Origin: Candidatus Kaiserbacteria bacterium
GTDB lineage: Bacteria > Patescibacteriota > Minisyncoccia > Phycocordibacterales > UBA918
Assembly: GCA_016204695.1 (NCBI GenBank)
Contig: JACQKD010000007.1
Coordinates: 1 to 55,180, forward strand
Length of the DNA: 55,180 nucleotides
Direction of reading: 5' to 3'
The notes under the pieces are model-generated. The model made no database searches. It was given only the letters and a program-made list of their open reading frames with translations, and was not told where the DNA came from. Made by a program: the position numbers and the translations under genes. Every line of letters starts with the position of its first letter. Within the stretch, counting starts at the first letter, position 1. Positions 13,457 to 21,107 of the stretch are shown here, piece by piece.

Positions 13457-14380
13457 TCACTCTATGATCGCCTCGTTTAGAAACGAGCCAAGTACGATCA
13501 TCCGCTTGCTCATAGCGGCAAGTAACGTGAAGATCGCATTCATGACACGTGGATTTTTATGCACATCCATCTCTATGCAGAACACTACGCGATTGTCCGC
13601 ACCTCCGAGCGGAATTTGTGGAGCATATCGAACATTCACCTTGAGCGCCGCCATGGGGCTCAAGATGTCATGAAGGACGCCCGCCTCGTTCCGGTCAGGC
13701 CACAACAACACGGCAACCCCCGATCCAAAATCGTTTTGGACTATGCGATGTCCTTTCACCACAAGGTAAAAGTGCGTGTAATTTTCTTTGACATCCGCTA
13801 CATCGTCCACGAGCGGCGTCAAATTGTACAGCCCGGCGCAAAAGCGAGACGCGATCGCAGCGCGCGACGGATCTTGGATTTCCGCAACAGACTGTGCGGC
13901 GCCGGAAGTACTGGACATTGGCTCCAGTGAGGCGTCAGGAAGAATGCGCCGAAGCATTCGAGCGCACTGCCCCAGGGCCTGTCCGTGCGAGACCACCGTC
14001 TTGATGTCACTCAATTGCACCGAAGGATCACAAGCGAAGAGCTGATGCCTGATACGCAATGTAACCTTACCCACGACATGAAATGTCTCCTCCGAAACAA
14101 AAGAAGGCTGGGTGGATAGGTAGTACTTCTCATGACTCGGTCCTCTCATGAGATAGCGCATCACACCAGCCACGTATCCCTCAACTGTGTTGTAAACCGG
14201 GACGATACCCATTGGCAAATCAGCTTCACCGCTACCGTTTTCAATCTCAGCAAGCACATCCTGATTGTCTTTCACAAACTCAATTTCTACAGTTCCATGG
14301 AAGACGTTTGCGTTTAGCCATTGAGCTACACAATCTCCGTAGGATCCTCCCGGCCCCAAACACACTAATTTGCGACTCAT
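13457..14380 (-). CDS. pheA: Prephenate dehydratase (PheA-type, with ACT-like domain)
   Basis: 307 aa. The N-terminal two-lobed dehydratase domain is marked by LGPGGSYGDCVAQ (residues 8-20), a PVYNTVEGYV motif (about 61-70) and ENYTHFYLVVKG (about 199-210). The last corresponds to the catalytic TRF motif, with Thr and Phe kept but Arg changed to His. The C-terminal region (about 215-300) is ACT-like, but the ESRP Phe-binding motif is absent. The enzyme turns prephenate into phenylpyruvate in Phe synthesis. A GGGGAG site lies 8 nt before the ATG. Expression is likely controlled by the leader peptide and terminator just upstream (14426-14544). Confidence 0.82.
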   Translation of the reverse strand: MSRKLVCLGPGGSYGDCVAQWLNANVFHGTVEIEFVKDNQDVLAEIENGSGEADLPMGIVPVYNTVEGYVAGVMRYLMRGPSHEKYYLSTQPSFVSEETFHVVGKVTLRIRHQLFACDPSVQLSDIKTVVSHGQALGQCARMLRRILPDASLEPMSSTSGAAQSVAEIQDPSRAAIASRFCAGLYNLTPLVDDVADVKENYTHFYLVVKGHRIVQNDFGSGVAVLLWPDRNEAGVLHDILSPMAALKVNVRYAPQIPLGGADNRVVFCIEMDVHKNPRVMNAIFTLLAAMSKRMIVLGSFLNEAIIE

Positions 14381-14425: not shown

Positions 14426-14465
14426 AAAACAAAAACCGCTGCCCGGAGGGTAGCGGTTTTTGTTT
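14426..14465 (-). terminator. Phe attenuator terminator upstream of pheA
   Basis: AACAAAAACCGCTGCCC-GGA-GGGTAGCGGTTTTTGTT inverted repeat; on the minus strand the stem ends in TTTTTGTTTT, 45 nt before pheA. The leader segment at 14486-14498 can pair with its loop and one arm (14442-14455) as an antiterminator. Confidence 0.88.
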
Positions 14466-14481
14466 CAGATTTCTTGTAACA

Positions 14482-14544
14482 CTAACGCACCCTTCGGGTT
14501 TCCGAGGTTCTAAAGAAACCAAAGAAGAGTGCGTTGTGTATCAC
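14482..14544 (-). CDS. Phe-rich leader peptide (pheL-like), 20 aa
   Basis: A GTG-started 20-codon ORF containing NALFFGFFRTS: four Phe codons (TTC TTT GGT TTC TTT) within five codons. It is too short for ordinary gene calling. TATAGT at 14552-14557 is 7 nt before the GTG, so the transcript should begin at or next to the start codon (leaderless). The first codons (GTGCGTT, plus 14529-14535) can pair with AACGCAC at 14484-14490, giving a 1:2 hairpin that competes with the antiterminator. A ribosome stalled at Phe codons would favour antitermination and pheA expression, as in enterobacterial pheL. Confidence 0.85.
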   Translation of the reverse strand: MIHNALFFGFFRTSETRRVR

Positions 14545-14687: not shown

Positions 14688-15008
14688 TTATTTTGCGTAG
14701 GGATACACCGCCGACCCCACGAGAGACGGGTCTTCAATCGCGGTAGACTGCCCACTGCAGGAAACGATCCTGCGGACTTTTTGTGTTAAGTCTTCGACAA
14801 CTCCACTGTCGAAGTCTCTGCCTACAAATACCTTTCTGGCAGCCAATCGAGCCCACGGGCCTCTCCCCCTCTTGGTGAAAAAGGCCACGGACCCCTTCGG
14901 GGCCACTTCGTCTGGCTGAAGCCAGCGAATGTGACATCCTACCCTTTGAGCTGCGGCGAGAATGGACCTAATAGCAGAAAGATCGTTCTGGGTAGCAACA
15001 ACTAACAT
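14688..15008 (-). CDS. Hypothetical protein under Leu-type leader, 106 aa
   Basis: Not recognised. It starts MLVVATQNDLSAIRSIL, a strand-helix pattern, and continues with a basic GRGPWARLAARK region (about 49-60) and a C-terminal half with a single Cys-Ser-Gly motif. No signal or membrane segment. The ATG at 15008 has a perfect AAGGAGG site 6 nt upstream, which excludes the longer in-frame starts. It is the only gene between the Leu-rich leader/terminator (15154-15302) and its own terminator, so its synthesis should rise when leucyl-tRNA runs short. Confidence 0.72.
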   Translation of the reverse strand: MLVVATQNDLSAIRSILAAAQRVGCHIRWLQPDEVAPKGSVAFFTKRGRGPWARLAARKVFVGRDFDSGVVEDLTQKVRRIVSCSGQSTAIEDPSLVGSAVYPYAK

Positions 15009-15070
15009 CGTCAGCCTCCTTATCGGATACATGGACGCCCTGCCTTCACGCAGATACCATTTCAACCCAG

Positions 15071-15126
15071 CATCAGCGAGGCGGCAAAATAAGCGTCGGA
15101 ACGCCGACCTCACCGCCTCGCTGATG
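15071..15126 (-). repeat. Stem-loop in the 5' leader of the 106-aa gene
   Basis: Arms CATCAGCGAGGCGG and CCGCCTCGCTGATG (14 bp, perfect) enclose a smaller hairpin (GCGTC-GGAA-CGCCGAC type). It lies between the Leu attenuator and the Shine-Dalgarno site and may add a second layer of control or stabilise the mRNA. Confidence 0.7.
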
Positions 15127-15153
15127 CATTTTGTGGAAAGAACTGAAGAACAA

Positions 15154-15190
15154 ACGAAAATCGACCTCCCAAAGGAAGGCCGATTTTCGT
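15154..15190 (-). terminator. Leu-type attenuator terminator
   Basis: ACGAAAATCG...CGATTTTCGT arms with internal CCTCCC/AAGGAAGG; on the minus strand it ends in TTTTCGTTTGTTC. The leader segment at 15229-15239 (GCCTTCCTTTC on plus) pairs with AAAGGAAGGC at 15171-15180, giving the antiterminator. Confidence 0.8.
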
Positions 15191-15206
15191 CGTATGCTTC
15201 TACTAT

Positions 15207-15302
15207 CTATGAAAACATACGAGAACCAGCCTTCCTTTCAAGAAGGACTAGTCCTAGCACGAGAAGCTGGCTCTGTTGCCGACTTACTTCTATCGTTTTC
15301 AT
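15207..15302 (-). CDS. Leu/Val-rich leader peptide, 31 aa
   Basis: A 31-codon ATG ORF whose centre reads QLLVLGLVLLE: six Leu and two Val codons within nine residues. It is followed by a terminator and preceded by a promoter whose -10 hexamer lies 7 nt from the ATG, so it is probably a leaderless transcript. The Leu codons sit between CCAGC/GCTGG arms that can form a 1:2 hairpin. The architecture equals that of leuL/ilv-type leader peptides, where scarcity of charged tRNA-Leu prevents termination. Confidence 0.8.
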   Translation of the reverse strand: MKTIEVSRQQSQLLVLGLVLLERKAGSRMFS

Positions 15303-15309
15303 ACAGAGT

Positions 15310-15337
15310 ATAGTATGCCGACGCAAAAATATGTCAA
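15310..15337 (-). promoter_or_regulatory. Promoter of the Leu-type leader
   Basis: TTGACA (plus 15332-15337), 16-nt spacer, TACTAT (plus 15310-15315). Confidence 0.8.
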
Positions 15338-15360: not shown

Positions 15361-15384
15361 AAGCAGCTCTAGGGAGAGCTGCTC
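15361..15384 (-). terminator. Terminator of the 68-aa gene
   Basis: AGCAGCTCT-CCCT-AGAGCTGCT on the minus strand, followed by TTTTCC. The stop codon of the gene lies inside the stem. Confidence 0.75.
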
Positions 15385-15575
15385 GAGGTGGCGTCATAGG
15401 TGACTTCGACAAAACTATACATCTCCGGCGGGAACTCTGTCATTCCCGTCAGGCGATCCCAGGTCAGACGCTCAAAGTAAAGCTGCTCGTATTCAGCCTG
15501 AGTGGGACGTCTGTAGTGTCGTGCCGGACTCTGACTTTTGCAACTGTTCTCCGCTACTACTAAAGGAACTGGCAT
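15369..15575 (-). CDS. Hypothetical small protein under Ile-type leader, 68 aa
   Basis: Not recognised. It starts MPVPLVVAENS, has an aromatic/acidic middle (EYEQLYFERLTWDRL, about 28-42) and a Ser-rich C-terminus (TSSSSP). No membrane segment. GAGGGAG 9 nt before ATG 15575 is a plausible ribosome site. It is the only gene between the Ile attenuator and its terminator at 15361-15384, so it should respond to isoleucine supply. The product could be a regulator or anti-factor, but nothing in the sequence shows this. Confidence 0.65.
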   Translation of the reverse strand: MPVPLVVAENSCKSQSPARHYRRPTQAEYEQLYFERLTWDRLTGMTEFPPEMYSFVEVTYDATSSSSP

Positions 15576-15626: not shown

Positions 15627-15660
15627 AAGAAAAACTCCTCTTGGCAGAGGAGTTTTTCTT
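15627..15660 (-). terminator. Ile-type attenuator terminator
   Basis: Perfect 15-bp stem AAGAAAAACTCCTCT/AGAGGAGTTTTTCTT with a 4-nt loop and T-rich tail on the minus strand. GAGGAGTTT (15647-15655) can instead pair with GCAAACTCCTC of the leader (15693-15703). Confidence 0.88.
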
Positions 15661-15688: not shown

Positions 15689-15760
15689 TCAAGCAAACTC
15701 CTCGAGAGAGGAGATAATAATCGCAATGATGGCGCCCGTCAGATGTTGTTGCGATGTCAC
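15689..15760 (-). CDS. Ile-rich leader peptide, 23 aa
   Basis: A GTG-started ORF of 23 codons with the run GAIIAIIISS: five Ile codons (ATC ATT GCG ATT ATT ATC) within six. TAATAT at 15767-15772 lies 6 nt before the GTG, so translation probably begins on a leaderless end. The codons just after the Ile run (CTCCTC) pair with GAGGAG a few nt later as the 1:2 hairpin, and the same GAGGAG segment can pair with the terminator arm as antiterminator. This is ilv-leader logic; the controlled gene is the 68-aa orphan. Confidence 0.85.
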   Translation of the reverse strand: MTSQQHLTGAIIAIIISSLEEFA

Positions 15761-15864: not shown

Positions 15865-15969
15865 CTATTGCCCACTTGGCCGCGCCGGGGGTGGCGCAGG
15901 CTTCTGGGTTCCGGACCCTTTCCCTTCTGCAGGGGGGATGGGGTCCGAACCTGTGTAACCCAGCACCAT
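15865..15969 (-). CDS. Putative 34-aa Pro/Gly-rich peptide under Phe/Tyr leader
   Basis: A short ORF with a good Shine-Dalgarno site (AAAGGAG, 5 nt before ATG 15969). The peptide is hydrophilic and Pro-rich (SDPIPPAEGKGSG, KPAPPPARPSG). It overlaps a strong RNA hairpin (GGTTCGGACCC / GGGTCCGGAACC) and its stop lies in the loop of CAAGTGG...CCACTTG (15857-15878). An overlapping frame with its own GGAGG site (ATG near 15996) would give a 77-aa product running into the next promoter; I prefer the 34-aa frame but cannot exclude the other, nor a structured RNA. Confidence 0.45.
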   Translation of the reverse strand: MVLGYTGSDPIPPAEGKGSGTQKPAPPPARPSGQ

Positions 15970-16077
15970 AAGAACTCCTTTCTCAAGACCGCCACCATGA
16001 CGGCCTCCAGAGAACCTCGTTGTCCTCTGGCATCGAGGCGGGGTGTTCCCTGCGCGCGATGCCAAGTGACAAACGAA

Positions 16078-16102
16078 AACTCCTCTCGGAGTGAGAGGAG
16101 TT
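16078..16102 (-). terminator. Phe/Tyr-type attenuator terminator
   Basis: AACTCCTCTC/GAGAGGAGTT perfect 10-bp stem, 5-nt loop, then TTTTCGTTTG on the minus strand. AGAGGAGTTG (16094-16103) can pair instead with CAACTCCTCTT in the leader (16154-16164). Confidence 0.82.
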
Positions 16103-16122
16103 GTCGGGTGTGTTCTGTCTTT

Positions 16123-16221
16123 TCAGGCCTTTGCCATACTGACCGCACCGATCCAACTCCTCTTACTAAAGAAGTAATAGAAGGCAAAGAAATAAATGGC
16201 AACGGTCACAATGTAATGCAT
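16123..16221 (-). CDS. Phe/Tyr-rich leader peptide, 32 aa
   Basis: A 32-codon ORF whose first half reads HYIVTVAIYFFAFYYFFSK: five Phe and four Tyr codons within 17 residues. The segment right after them (TTACT-TCTTT-AGTAA) forms a small hairpin overlapping the antiterminator segment, and a terminator follows at 16078-16102. No Shine-Dalgarno site is visible. The hydrophobic run could also be a mini membrane protein, but the promoter-ORF-antiterminator-terminator order matches its four sister units, so attenuation by charged tRNA-Phe/Tyr is the better reading. Confidence 0.72.
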   Translation of the reverse strand: MHYIVTVAIYFFAFYYFFSKRSWIGAVSMAKA

Positions 16222-16235
16222 GATGTCGATGTAAC

Positions 16236-16262
16236 ACTATACCCACCCCCACACGTTGTCAA
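16236..16262 (-). promoter_or_regulatory. Promoter of the Phe/Tyr-type leader
   Basis: TTGACA (plus 16257-16262, overlapping the trpA stop), short 15-nt spacer, TATAGT (plus 16236-16241). Confidence 0.6.
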
Positions 16263-17053
16263 TCGGCACCGGTGAGTTGCTTCACCTGTGCGGATATGTT
16301 CTGGAGCAAGCGTTTTTTATTCGAAAGATTATCGGTGATGGTCTTGACGAGCGCACTGCCGACAATGGCGCCATCCGCTCCCTGTTTTTCGAGAAGCGCA
16401 ATATGTTCCCTCTTTGAAATGCCGAAGCCCACGGCAAGCGGCAAGTCGGTCTGTCGCCGTATTCGTTTCAAAAGCTTGGGCATGTCCGCAGAAAGGGACG
16501 CCCGTGCGCCGGTGACGCCGAGCACGGATACAACATACAGATACCCTTTTGCGTAACGGAGAATTTTTTTGAGCCGCTCGGGAGTCGTAGTGTGCGCCAC
16601 GAGAAAGATGGGGTCGATGCCGGCCTTTGCCGCCGCCTGCGCGAACGGTTCTATTTCCTCCACCGGCACGTCGGGGATAAGCACGCCGTCGACGCCTGCG
16701 GCTTTCGCTTCTGTATAAAATCGCTCGATTCCTTTCTGGTAAACGATATTCGCGTAGACGAGCACGGTGATCGGTACGTCGGTGGACTCGCGAACTTTTT
16801 TGATGTATGTGAAGACGTGATCAGTGTCCATCCCGGCGCCGAGCGCGCGAATATCGGCGGCCTGGATCGTCGGGCCGTCCGCGAGCGGATCGGAATACGG
16901 GAATCCTATTTCCAAAAGATCAGCGGGCGACGCGATCGTTTTTGCAATCGATACGCTCGTTTCGAGGTCGGGATCTCCCGCAACGAGAAACGGCATGAAC
17001 GCGATCCTGCCTTCGGCTCTCGTCTCTTTGAATTTCTGCTCTAGCCGTGTCAT
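16259..17053 (-). CDS. trpA: Tryptophan synthase alpha chain
   Basis: 264 aa, normal length. TIM barrel with catalytic Glu in [16 protein letters not shown] (about 46-61) and Asp in the same motif, the phosphate loop GFGISKREH and a VGSAL motif near the C-terminus. It splits indole-3-glycerol phosphate into indole and glyceraldehyde 3-phosphate, passing indole to TrpB. Its ATG overlaps the trpB stop by 4 bp, so the two subunits are coupled. It is the last gene of the unit; its stop overlaps the -35 box of the next leader unit. Confidence 0.95.
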
Positions 17054-18225
17054 AGGGATTGTGCGCGAGTGACGGTTTCGAGGTCTTTGTCCCCTCGTCC
17101 CGAAAGATTGATAACGACGATCTTATTTTTCGGCAGACGCTTTGCGAGCGCGTAGCCGTAGGCGACCGCGTGTGAAGATTCGAGCGCGGGAATGATGCCC
17201 TCGGTTTCACAGAGGAGCGAAAACGCTTCGAGCGCTTGTTTGTCCGTCACGGAGACATACTCCGCCCGCCCGATTTCTCGGAGAAAGCTGTGCTCGGGAC
17301 CGACGCTCGGATAATCAAGCCCCGCCGAGACACTATGCGTCTCTTTGATCTGGCCGAATTTGTCTTGGAGTACAAACGATTTGGTCCCGTGGAGAATACC
17401 GACCCTGCCTCCGGCAAAACGTGCGGCGTGTTTGCCGGAGGCGATACCAAGCCCTCCGGCTTCGACGCCGATCATCTGCACTTTCTTGTCTTTGAGAAAC
17501 GGATAAAAAAGTCCGATCGCATTGCTTCCGCCGCCGACGCAGGCGACAAGATAGTCCGGAGGGCGTTTTTCTCTTTTGAGGATATCGCGTCGCGCTTCCT
17601 CGCCGATCACTTTCTGAAAATTGCGGATCATCTGCGGGTAGGGGTATGGGCCGAGCACCGATCCGAGAAGATAGTGCGTGGTATTGATGTTGGTAATCCA
17701 GTCGCGGAGCGCTTCGTTGATTGCGTCTTTGAGCGTCTTTGATCCCGAAGAGACCGGCACGACCTCGGCTCCCAGGAGCTTCATCCGAAGGACGTTTGGC
17801 TTCTGGCGCTCCATATCCACCTCTCCCATGTATACGACGCATTCCAAGCCGAATTTCGCCGCAACCGTCGCAGTCGCCACACCATGCTGGCCCGCACCGG
17901 TCTCGGCGATGATGCGCGACTTCCCCATGAAGCGCGCAAGGAGCACCTGCCCCACGGCGTTATTGATCTTGTGCGCGCCCGTGTGCGTGAGGTCTTCGCG
18001 CTTGAGGTATATTTTCGCGCCGCCGGCTTTTTTGGTCAGCCGCTCGGCAAAATAAAGCGGGGTCGGCCGTCCGGCAAACTCATGCAGATGCCGCGCAAGC
18101 TCCGCCCTACACTTCTTATCGCGAGAAAATTTCCCGTATGCGCGCTCAAGCTCTTCAAGCGCGCTCATCAGCGTCTCCGGCACGAACTGCCCCCCGAATT
18201 CTCCAAAATATCCTTTTTTATCCAT
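17050..18225 (-). CDS. trpB: Tryptophan synthase beta chain
   Basis: 391 aa. The PLP lysine is in HTGAHKINN (about 85-93), the catalytic Glu region in ETGAGQHG, and the phosphate-binding loop is GGGSNAIG (about 225-232). C-terminal NLSGRGDKD is conserved. TrpB joins indole and serine to tryptophan in complex with TrpA. The ATG overlaps the end of the PfkB-like gene by 8 bp. An inverted repeat GCCTCCGGCAAA/TTTGCCGGAGGC lies in the gene (17407-17442). Confidence 0.96.
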
Positions 18226-19084
18226 GTCGATCAGTCTTTTTCCGATAATATTCGTCGTTCGTAATGACTTTTATGGACTCTTCCTGTGCGGTGGAGATAA
18301 TAGTTTGCATCTCTTTCTCGGAACTACGCCCTCCTACAATCATCCCCATGACCGTGCCTGCAAATACATCCCCGGCATTGATGGGATCAAGCGGCCGGAC
18401 CACGCGGGCAAGAGGAAACATCCGACTCTCCGCAGGCGTTATGACTTCAATGCCGGAAGTGCCTTTTGTTTTAAAGATGTACTGCAGATTTTTGCAGTGC
18501 TCAAAAAGATCTTCTCCAATTTTGTCTGTCATATATTCGTACTCCTCCGCATTGGTGAAGAGGTGCGTTGCCGCTTTGACCAAGTCGATCGCATACTGCT
18601 CGTTATGCTTGAGGTGGTACAGAAGCGTATTGACCGCAACGACTTCGGGACATTGCATTTGTTTCAGTACTGCAAGCCCAAGTCGCGGATTCGAGCCGCT
18701 GAACAGGATGTTCTTCGACTTTTTCACCTGCTTCGTGGACAGCACAGGGCTATACGACCCGTAGACGCCGAACGCTATCTCTTCTCCTGACAGTTCAAAG
18801 GTGTCCGGGTCATAGGTGGATTGATAATAAAAACTCTCGCCTTCCATCTGCTCGACATTTTCTATGTGTACGGACGGCCCGAGGGCGCGCGCCAAGTCTT
18901 CGCGCGGCATGTCGGTCCCGATGACGCCGATTAGATCTACTTGCACGTGTTTGGCGGCCGCAAGGCTCGCGAGCGCGCCGTTGCCGCCAATGTATACGGG
19001 CGAGTACTCGGCACCGGCAAATCGGGACCTGCAAAACTCTATGGTTCCGAAAATCGTCAGTGACGTTGTGGTAAAAGATTCCAT
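18218..19084 (-). CDS. PfkB-family carbohydrate kinase in the trp unit
   Basis: 288 aa ribokinase-fold protein: [15 protein letters not shown] (residues 31-45) is the N-terminal Gly-Gly/Asn substrate motif, and [14 protein letters not shown] (about 235-248) corresponds to the DTxGAGD anion hole and catalytic Asp, with the usual Thr-x-Gly changed to Ile-Asn. Such kinases phosphorylate sugars or nucleosides. Position directly before trpB with an 8-bp overlap suggests a role tied to Trp synthesis, for example PRPP-side supply, but this is inference. It starts after a possible terminator, so it may open a second transcription unit. Confidence 0.8.
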
Positions 19085-19104
19085 GTGTAATTGTGATTAG
19101 TATG

Positions 19105-19145
19105 AAAAAGGGTTACGGGCGGCGGATGGGCACAGTACCGCCCGC
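19105..19145 (-). terminator. Possible terminator after the HAD gene
   Basis: GGCGGGCGG...CCGCCGCCC pairing on the minus strand, followed by GTAACCCTTTTTC. It lies between the HAD stop (19192) and the PfkB-like start (19084). Confidence 0.5.
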
Positions 19146-19191
19146 CACACCTCCCTCACCCTGTGACTTTGTTTGTAGTGTACCGTACCCC

Positions 19192-20007
19192 TCAATCCCC
19201 CACCAACTCCTCTAAGCTCTCAATGAATGTGAGCGCCGGAAATCTGGTCCTGAACTCGACCTGTCTCTCCGGGTTGATGATGATGCCAGTCACGTCATGG
19301 CACATATCCACCAAGAGACAGTCCGTCATGCTATCGCCGATATATATGATCGGCGATCCAGTCTCCAATCTTCTCGCAGTCTGCACTCTCTGGGCGGCAA
19401 GATAGACCGAGAATGGATGCGGCTTTGCCAGGTAACCGCGAGTGTAACCGTGCTCCGCCTCTTCTTGCTCAATGGTTTCACTGCCAACCACCAAATGTGC
19501 AGGAAAGATGTCACTTATTGCGCTTCTCGCGATAACTTGATGAACAAATCGTTCCGGACTGGCACTGGCGATCCCGCACACTATTCGCTTCTGTCTCATG
19601 TAGGCCAGAAGCGTATCAAGACCGGGGATTGGCGCGGGCAAATCTGCTTCAATCGACCGGTAAAGGAAGTCCCTCCGCATCGAGACGCAGAGACCAATCT
19701 GCTTTTCCGTGGACGAACCAGAAGACCTCCTGCCCAACTCGGTCAGCATTGATGGGAGACTTGGCATTTCGTGGGCGACATCAACATGTGCCGTCCCTCG
19801 AGCGATTGCAAGCAAGATGTGAAAAACTTCCCAATCACTCTTCCCTCGCAACAACGGCACAAAGCTTCGCGGGATAGGATCGCACACTCCCAACCCCTCC
19901 AGGACCGAATCAAACGAACTACGGTGGCGACGTGACGTATCGAACATTGTTTGGTCGAAATCAAAAACCAACACAGACCCTGTTCCTAAGTCCCTTAGTG
20001 ATCTCAT
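19192..20007 (-). CDS. HAD-superfamily phosphatase
   Basis: 271 aa. All four HAD motifs are visible: FDFDQTMFDT (nucleophile Asp, residues 15-24), the Ser/Thr motif in IASASPE (about 147-153), Lys in LAKPHPFSVY (about 194-203) and the acidic pair in YIGDSMTD (about 223-230). A helical cap lies between motifs I and II, as in phosphoglycolate-type phosphatases. It sits between trpC and the kinase-trpBA genes and has a strong AGGAGG site 8 nt before the ATG. Substrate unknown; the phosphatase/kinase pair inside a trp cluster is unusual. Confidence 0.82.
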   Translation of the reverse strand: MRSLRDLGTGSVLVFDFDQTMFDTSRRHRSSFDSVLEGLGVCDPIPRSFVPLLRGKSDWEVFHILLAIARGTAHVDVAHEMPSLPSMLTELGRRSSGSSTEKQIGLCVSMRRDFLYRSIEADLPAPIPGLDTLLAYMRQKRIVCGIASASPERFVHQVIARSAISDIFPAHLVVGSETIEQEEAEHGYTRGYLAKPHPFSVYLAAQRVQTARRLETGSPIIYIGDSMTDCLLVDMCHDVTGIIINPERQVEFRTRFPALTFIESLEELVGD

Positions 20008-20075
20008 GATATCGTCCTCCTGCTTGTGGTTGTAATCAGCACAAAATTTTTGAAGAACTCAATCAAAAGAACCGT

Positions 20076-20127
20076 GTTTGTGCTGGTGTGTAGGATCTTT
20101 TCTAAAAGCCCACACACCAGCACAAAC
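20076..20127 (-). repeat. Long hairpin between trpC and the HAD gene
   Basis: GTTTGTGCTGGTGTG/CACACCAGCACAAAC, a 15-bp perfect stem with about 22-nt loop, 18 nt after the trpC stop. There is no T tract, so it may be a processing or mRNA-stability element, or reduce read-through. Confidence 0.65.
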
Positions 20128-20145
20128 TGAAGCAATACGTCTGGG

Positions 20146-20937
20146 TCAACACCAGCCGGACTGCTTCAACTCCTGTATTTTCTGCAGGGGATCTTGAGAC
20201 TTGATGATCGAGGTGCCGACGAGTATGCCCCGCACACCAAGTCCGGTAAGCTCTCGGACATCTTCGGCAGTATTGATCCCCGATTCGCTCACCACTATCT
20301 TGTCTTTCGGAATGAGCCGCATCAGATCCCTCGTTGTTTGCAGGTCTACCGTAAGTGTCTGGAGGTTACGATTGTTGATACCTATAATCTCGGCATCTGC
20401 CTCAAGTGTCCGAGCAAGCTCATCCGCGTCGTGAACCTCAACGATACTAGCGAGACCGAGCGACCTTCCGAGAGACAAAAATTCTTTCAGCTCGGTCGCG
20501 GTGAGCAGAGAAGCCATGAGCAGAAACGCATCTGCCCGGGCCAGGAACGTCTCGTAGATTTGGTAGGCGTCAATGATGAAATCTTTTCTAAAGATCGGCT
20601 GTGGAGCAATGTCTTTTACATCTTTGAGATAGAGCAAATCACCGTCGAAATACGTCCGGTCCGTGAGTACCGAAACAGCGTCAGCACCGCTCTCCGCGTA
20701 GAGTCGGGCAATCTGTCGATGATCAAGACTGGTCAGCCGCCCCTCGGAGGGGGATTTAATTTTTATCTCCGCAATAAGGGCGACTCCTTCCATACCGAAG
20801 ATGTCTTTGAAGGGTCGAATTTCCCTTTTCCCCGTGAGTGCGGTCGACGTTCGTTCAATCTCACAAAGAGACATCTTCGATTTCGATTCATCGATTTCTT
20901 TCTTTTTTGTCGATATGACTTGTTTTAGGAAATTCAT
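20146..20937 (-). CDS. trpC: Indole-3-glycerol phosphate synthase
   Basis: 263 aa TIM barrel. Conserved motifs: IAEIKIKSPSEG (catalytic Lys and Ser), IFRKDFIIDAYQIYE (Lys), GINNRNLQTLTVDL and VSESGI. It closes the indole ring from CdRP. The ATG at 20937 begins MNFLKQVISTKKKEI, typical for the family; an upstream in-frame extension runs through the attenuator and is not coding. The gene lies 30 nt after an intrinsic terminator and a Trp-Trp leader peptide, so it is expected to be attenuated by tryptophan. Confidence 0.95.
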   Translation of the reverse strand: MNFLKQVISTKKKEIDESKSKMSLCEIERTSTALTGKREIRPFKDIFGMEGVALIAEIKIKSPSEGRLTSLDHRQIARLYAESGADAVSVLTDRTYFDGDLLYLKDVKDIAPQPIFRKDFIIDAYQIYETFLARADAFLLMASLLTATELKEFLSLGRSLGLASIVEVHDADELARTLEADAEIIGINNRNLQTLTVDLQTTRDLMRLIPKDKIVVSESGINTAEDVRELTGLGVRGILVGTSIIKSQDPLQKIQELKQSGWC

Positions 20938-21023: not shown

Positions 21024-21107
21024 TCAAGCCAACGCGAAAATCGGACTTTGCAGAGAAGTTTGCAAGGCCCACCAGTTCAACGAAATTGCGCGTCGGTTTG
21101 ATTTCAT
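21024..21107 (-). CDS. Trp leader peptide (trpL-like) with tandem Trp codons, 27 aa
   Basis: A 27-codon ATG ORF with the run ISLNWWALQTS; the tandem TGG TGG codons are at plus 21069-21074. The codons that follow (21042-21061) form the antiterminator segment, so a ribosome waiting at Trp codons leaves it free to pair with the terminator arm, whereas one that reaches the stop (21024) covers it. CTGGTG at the Trp codons can also pair with CACCAG near 21007-21012. This is canonical trp attenuation in compact form, directly upstream of trpC. Confidence 0.9.
   Translation of the reverse strand: MKSNRRAISLNWWALQTSLQSPIFALA

Follow-up and report, generated by a model that had tools for sequence, protein, structure and literature searches.

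A candidate leucine/valine leader-peptide attenuator ahead of an orphan open reading frame in a Candidatus Kaiserbacteria genome

The leu operon attenuators (leuL) of E. coli and S. typhimurium combine a leucine-rich leader ORF whose control codons are CUA, as described for the leu attenuator of Salmonella (PMC1183508), with a terminator and a competing antiterminator, the switch between the two being located at the control codons. In Actinobacteria, leader peptides encoded by leaderless transcripts have been described: branched-chain ilvL/leuL ORFs (e.g., S. lividans MRTRILVLGKRVG) are followed by hairpins and precede ilvBHC, leuA, and leuS (PMC8079986), and for phenylalanine the pheL leader is represented in Rfam by Phe_leader (RF01859). 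As of 2010, Proteobacteria and Actinobacteria were said to be the only groups with known leader-peptide attenuation, to which the Firmicutes were then added (PMC2965389). Among the papers that we searched, none reported leader-peptide attenuation for the Patescibacteria/CPR.

We examined a unit of this kind in a window of 55,180 nucleotides (positions 1 to 55,180 of contig JACQKD010000007.1, assembly GCA_016204695.1) of a Candidatus Kaiserbacteria bacterium. It lies on the minus strand between trpA and pheA (Table 1) and is very probably, as judged from its sequence and from modelling, a ribosome-mediated transcription attenuator that responds mainly to the supply of leucine and possibly also to that of valine. 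It resembles the leuL attenuators in its leucine-rich leader ORF with CUA codons and in a terminator that competes with an antiterminator, with a modelled switch at the control codons. In contrast to leuL, it is followed by a 106-aa orphan ORF instead of leuABCD, the control run is a mixture of leucine and valine, and the ORF probably starts at the 5′ end of the transcript without a Shine-Dalgarno sequence. This last property it shares with the actinobacterial ilvL/leuL leaders, which belong to a different clade and precede different genes; the likeness noted here is one of architecture. The unit is best read as a known mechanism in a new location, i.e., a small-genome order, and with a new, orphan, and as yet unproven target.

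Table 1. Positions of leader, attenuator, and associated gene features in the window.
Feature	Position	Strand	Remarks
Candidate Trp leader	21024..21107	minus	MKSNRRAISLNWWALQTSLQSPIFALA (NWW); upstream of trpC
Phe/Tyr unit, promoter	16236..16262	minus	TTGACA-15-TATAGT
Phe/Tyr unit, leader ORF	16123..16221	minus	MHYIVTVAIYFFAFYYFFSKRSWIGAVSMAKA; run YFFAFYYFF
Phe/Tyr unit, terminator	16074..16106	minus	
34-aa ORF behind Phe/Tyr unit	15865..15969	minus	AAAGGAG upstream; coding status doubtful
Ile unit, promoter	15796-15767	minus	TTGACC/TAATAT
Ile unit, leader ORF	15689..15760	minus	GTG start; MTSQQHLTGAIIAIIISSLEEFA; run IIAIII
Ile unit, terminator	15627..15660	minus	
68-aa orphan ORF behind Ile unit	15369..15575	minus	
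Leu/Val unit, putative promoter	15310..15337	minus	TTGACA (15337-15332), 16 nt, TACTAT (15315-15310)
Leu/Val unit, leader ORF	15302-15207	minus	31 codons; MKTIEVSRQQSQLLVLGLVLLERKAGSRMFS
Leu/Val unit, control codons 13-21	15240..15266	minus	CTT CTC GTG CTA GGA CTA GTC CTT CTT
Leu/Val unit, antiterminator 5′ strand (region 2)	15219..15238	minus	within leader ORF; folded stem extends to about 15209
Leu/Val unit, antiterminator 3′ strand (region 3)	15171..15190	minus	terminator 5′ arm + loop
Leu/Val unit, putative terminator hairpin	15153..15191	minus	18 pairs, then TGTTCTTC
Hairpin in 5′ UTR of 106-aa ORF	15070..15127	minus	about 26 bp; no U-tract
Shine-Dalgarno AAGGAGG	15015..15021	minus	perfect; 6 nt before ATG
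106-aa orphan ORF	14688..15008	minus	presumed target
Phe unit, leader ORF	14482..14544	minus	GTG start; MIHNALFFGFFRTSETRRVR; run LFFGFF; upstream of pheA
Phe unit, terminator	14426..14466	minus	
pheA, prephenate dehydratase	13457..14380	minus	PF00800 1.2e-37; ACT domain under its cut-off

The initial annotation had described a Leu/Val-rich run in a 31-codon ORF, a TTGACA/TACTAT promoter, and a terminator arm complementary to the leader, and all three are indeed present, the two hexamers with a spacing of 16 nt. The control run LLVLGLVLL consists of six Leu, two Val, and one Gly, and two of the six Leu codons are CUA, which makes up only 2% of the leucine codons here. The complementarity proposed earlier, of AAAGGAAGGC (15238-15229) to GCCTTCCTTT (15180-15171), is part of a longer pairing: the two antiterminator arms are 20 nt long and 85% complementary, and their pairing is mutually exclusive with the terminator. 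The duplex between leader and terminator arm has a predicted energy of -28.1 kcal/mol versus -12.5 +/- 2.5 kcal/mol for dinucleotide-shuffled leaders, none of which (0/2000; p = 0.0005) matched it, and the RNA that ends at the terminator loop, when the 3′ arm has not yet been made, is predicted to fold into the antiterminator (z -4.8). The terminator itself is assigned by sequence only, and its U-tract is modest (TTTTCGTTTGTTC).

The effect of a stalled ribosome was modelled codon by codon by blocking a footprint from -15 to +13 relative to the A site, taking as readout what share of the terminator 5′ arm is sequestered by upstream sequence while the 3′ arm is still missing; this model is crude and by itself not evidence of function. 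With the ribosome at codons 1-19, 81% of the terminator arm is sequestered, a share that drops to 0.63 at L20 and 0.43 at L21, stays at 0.16-0.37 for codons 22-30, and climbs again to 0.41 at the last codon and 0.58 at the stop. The antiterminator is also favoured, as long as the 3′ arm is unmade, in a fully free leader RNA (0.81) and when the ribosome has reached the stop codon (0.58). Once the 3′ arm is present, the terminator prevails at equilibrium for stalls at L18-L21 (0.91-0.93), and only a ribosome stalled at L14-G17 suppresses it (0.06-0.34). Antitermination by a ribosome stalled at L18-L21 would, therefore, have to be kinetic, and the modelled switch is largely so.

In the proposed mechanism, RNA polymerase would start at or beside the AUG and the ribosome would load at the 5′ end of the RNA. 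When charged Leu-tRNA is plentiful, the ribosome would pass the LLVLGLVLL codons and its footprint would cover or displace region 2, upon which the 18-bp terminator would form and transcription would stop. When Leu-tRNA is short, the ribosome would stall on the Leu codons and leave region 2 free to pair with the 5′ arm of the terminator, so that transcription would continue into the 106-aa ORF, which would then be translated from its AAGGAGG site.

The assumption of leaderless initiation is derived from the spacing of the putative promoter: the -10 hexamer ends 7 nt before the leader ATG and the leader ORF is, therefore, probably leaderless. The start codons of most of the leaders lie 6-7 nt past a -10 hexamer (e.g., TATAGT ends 7 nt before the GTG of the Phe leader of pheA), with the exception of the Phe/Tyr (14 nt) and Trp (12 nt) leaders. 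Genome statistics were compiled from the window plus 28 stretches, together 571 kb of 835 kb, in which our own gene calls provided 303 gene starts. Hexamers resembling a -10 element peak at 6 nt before these starts (17/303), with a second peak at 8-9 nt and about 2 at other distances, and Shine-Dalgarno-like motifs are rare (18/303), so that the genome looks largely leaderless.

It had been proposed that the leader controls the 106-aa gene and that a 14-bp stem-loop in its 5′ UTR adds a second step of control. The attenuator part of this proposal is well supported by the competing structures, a modelled switch that coincides with the control run, the rare CUA codons, and the parallel leaders described below, whereas the target, for which no homologue was found, is plausible only, from its position and the perfect AAGGAGG, a site confirmed here. 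The anti-Shine-Dalgarno pattern was not found in the assembly, so that the site is a putative Shine-Dalgarno sequence. The stem-loop is real and larger than claimed, with perfect arms of 15 nt (15127-15113 and 15084-15070) and about 26 pairs in the fold; it has no significant second copy in the genome that would mark it as a repeat. A second step of control is, however, not supported: the hairpin lacks a U-tract, is separated by about 50 nt from the Shine-Dalgarno sequence downstream, and hardly alters the predicted accessibility of that site (0.36-0.38 with or without the upstream sequence). Given its composition, the 106-aa ORF has a near-random codon usage (z 1.0), and its GC content by codon position is 0.58/0.50/0.56 versus about 0.61/0.42/0.66 in most of the genes sampled. 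No Pfam domain was found, an AlphaFold prediction from the single sequence is unusable (mean pLDDT 38.6), and no homologue was found in 59 relatives, 397 genomes of the order, 84,980 species, phages, or viral contigs; weak matches within the order (best E 0.006 over 397 genomes) were judged to be due to chance. The leader DNA gave only short chance matches in relatives, without a homologous locus. A target in branched-chain biosynthesis is unlikely because ilvC is absent from the genome.

The Leu/Val unit is not alone in the gap between trpA and pheA. Phe/Tyr, Ile, Leu/Val, and Phe leader/attenuator units form a tandem array on the minus strand (16262-14426), three of the four having orphan small ORFs behind them; for the 68-aa ORF behind the Ile unit no homologue was found in 84,980 species. 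In the stretch that separates the Phe/Tyr terminator from the 34-aa ORF lies a Trp-rich ORF of 16 codons (MPEDNEVLWRPSWWRS; 16033-15983, minus strand). In the stalling model all three other units lose the antiterminator where the run ends or right beside it, i.e., at codons 16-17 (Phe/Tyr), 16-17 (Ile), and 11-12 (Phe). The Phe unit of pheA resembles pheL in its LFFGFF leader and terminator, yet it scores 29.4 bits against RF01859, below the gathering score of 55, and is thus not a member by that model. Except for tRNAs, no Rfam family reached its gathering score.

The features of the 106-aa ORF leave an appreciable chance, clearly less than even, that the attenuator is real and this ORF is not its functional product, readthrough instead giving rise, for example, to a non-coding RNA that contains the 26-bp hairpin, or extending transcription toward pheA. 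Its near-random codon usage, the lack of homologues, and the low pLDDT would fit such an explanation. However, the ORF carries a perfect AAGGAGG at a spacing of 6 nt, although few of the genes sampled have a similar site in front of them, and the 34-aa and 68-aa ORFs behind other units likewise carry purine-rich sites. It seems extremely improbable that the 31-codon ORF encodes a hydrophobic membrane mini-protein and that the hairpins merely delimit it. The LLVLGLVLL run is hydrophobic as this would require, but its nine residues make up about half a membrane span, it overlaps the 20-nt arm complementary to the terminator, and the adjacent leaders share the architecture yet carry quite different amino-acid-specific runs.

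The arrangement could also have arisen by chance, from hairpins and a short ORF that happen to lie together in a degenerate intergenic gap, which we consider very unlikely. To estimate this, 234 terminator-like hairpins were scanned with the upstream 175 nt shuffled in 25 rounds, a scan that superseded two looser and noisy ones; because of its limits on run length, it did not pick up the Phe leader of pheA or the Trp leader. Its thresholds were fixed after the units had been seen, so that its counts are descriptive: seven matches had at least the run strength of the Leu/Val leader together with a switch, versus 0.76 expected per 571-kb scan from shuffled leaders, three had a score of 5 or above (0.08 expected), and two a score of 7 or above (none in the 25 rounds). 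Since these counts exceed the shuffle expectation, the Phe/Tyr, Met, and Ile leaders are remarkable in their own right. By run enrichment and switch alone the Leu/Val leader is not exceptional genome-wide, and almost one such match could be expected by chance. However, three of the seven matches fall in the single 1.9-kb trpA-pheA gap, where roughly 0.02 would be expected for its five terminator-like hairpins, and the real duplex outperforms every one of its 2000 shuffles. It is the duplex, the CUA codons, and the location that distinguish the Leu/Val leader.

Parallel leaders occur elsewhere in the genome and in related genomes. A Met-rich leader (MVRIAGTDTNMMMGMMTSAYEGAFLRN; MMMGMM; contig C7, L039, 14363-14233, minus strand) precedes a gene resembling a SAM hydroxide adenosyltransferase, whose product has the C-terminal domain of that enzyme (PF20257, 32.2 bits, cut-off 25.5). 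In the order, 5 of 15 homologues of this gene are preceded by Met-rich leaders (MMMEMM, MMMA, MMMAMM twice, and MIMSMM), i.e., 6 out of 16 genomes when the present one is counted. In the model, our own Met leader loses its antiterminator where the run ends or no more than a few codons away; four of the five leaders in relatives have a scored terminator, and three of these four lose the antiterminator shortly past the Met run, the modelled drop in the relative G014 (MMMAKLL) coming only at the stop codon. Phe leaders precede pheA in two relatives (SFFSFSF and NFFGFYFW), and these, too, lose the modelled antiterminator at the run end or a few codons from it; most other pheA genes inspected in relatives had no Phe leader. 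An F/Y-rich candidate on contig C9 (L041, 8830) was rejected, having no obvious gene in the same direction downstream.

Next to the tandem array, trpC, trpB, and trpA occupy 16259-20928 on the minus strand, with a HAD gene and a PfkB-like gene between them, and a candidate Trp leader with terminator (21107-20969, minus strand) lies before trpC. For this leader the model gives a weak switch (0.23), and the duplex does not reach significance (p 0.29). Weak partial matches aside, a search of 59 relatives gave trpA above the cut-off for the present genome alone, and full-length trpC was likewise confined to it among 397 genomes of the order, which suggests that the trp genes may have been acquired.

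A wider reading, which we put forward tentatively, would be that a very small bacterium from a lineage with reduced genomes keeps in this gap tandem, amino-acid-specific, and mostly leaderless attenuators, three of which drive lineage-specific small proteins and not biosynthetic enzymes, as a starvation-response module, and that the order as a whole makes use of such control. Candidate leader-peptide attenuators occur here in a small-genome order, and Met leaders recur across several of its genera. If these readings hold, leader codons would reveal the amino acids that uncultured cells run short of, and the leaders would mark the orphan genes behind them as starvation-induced.
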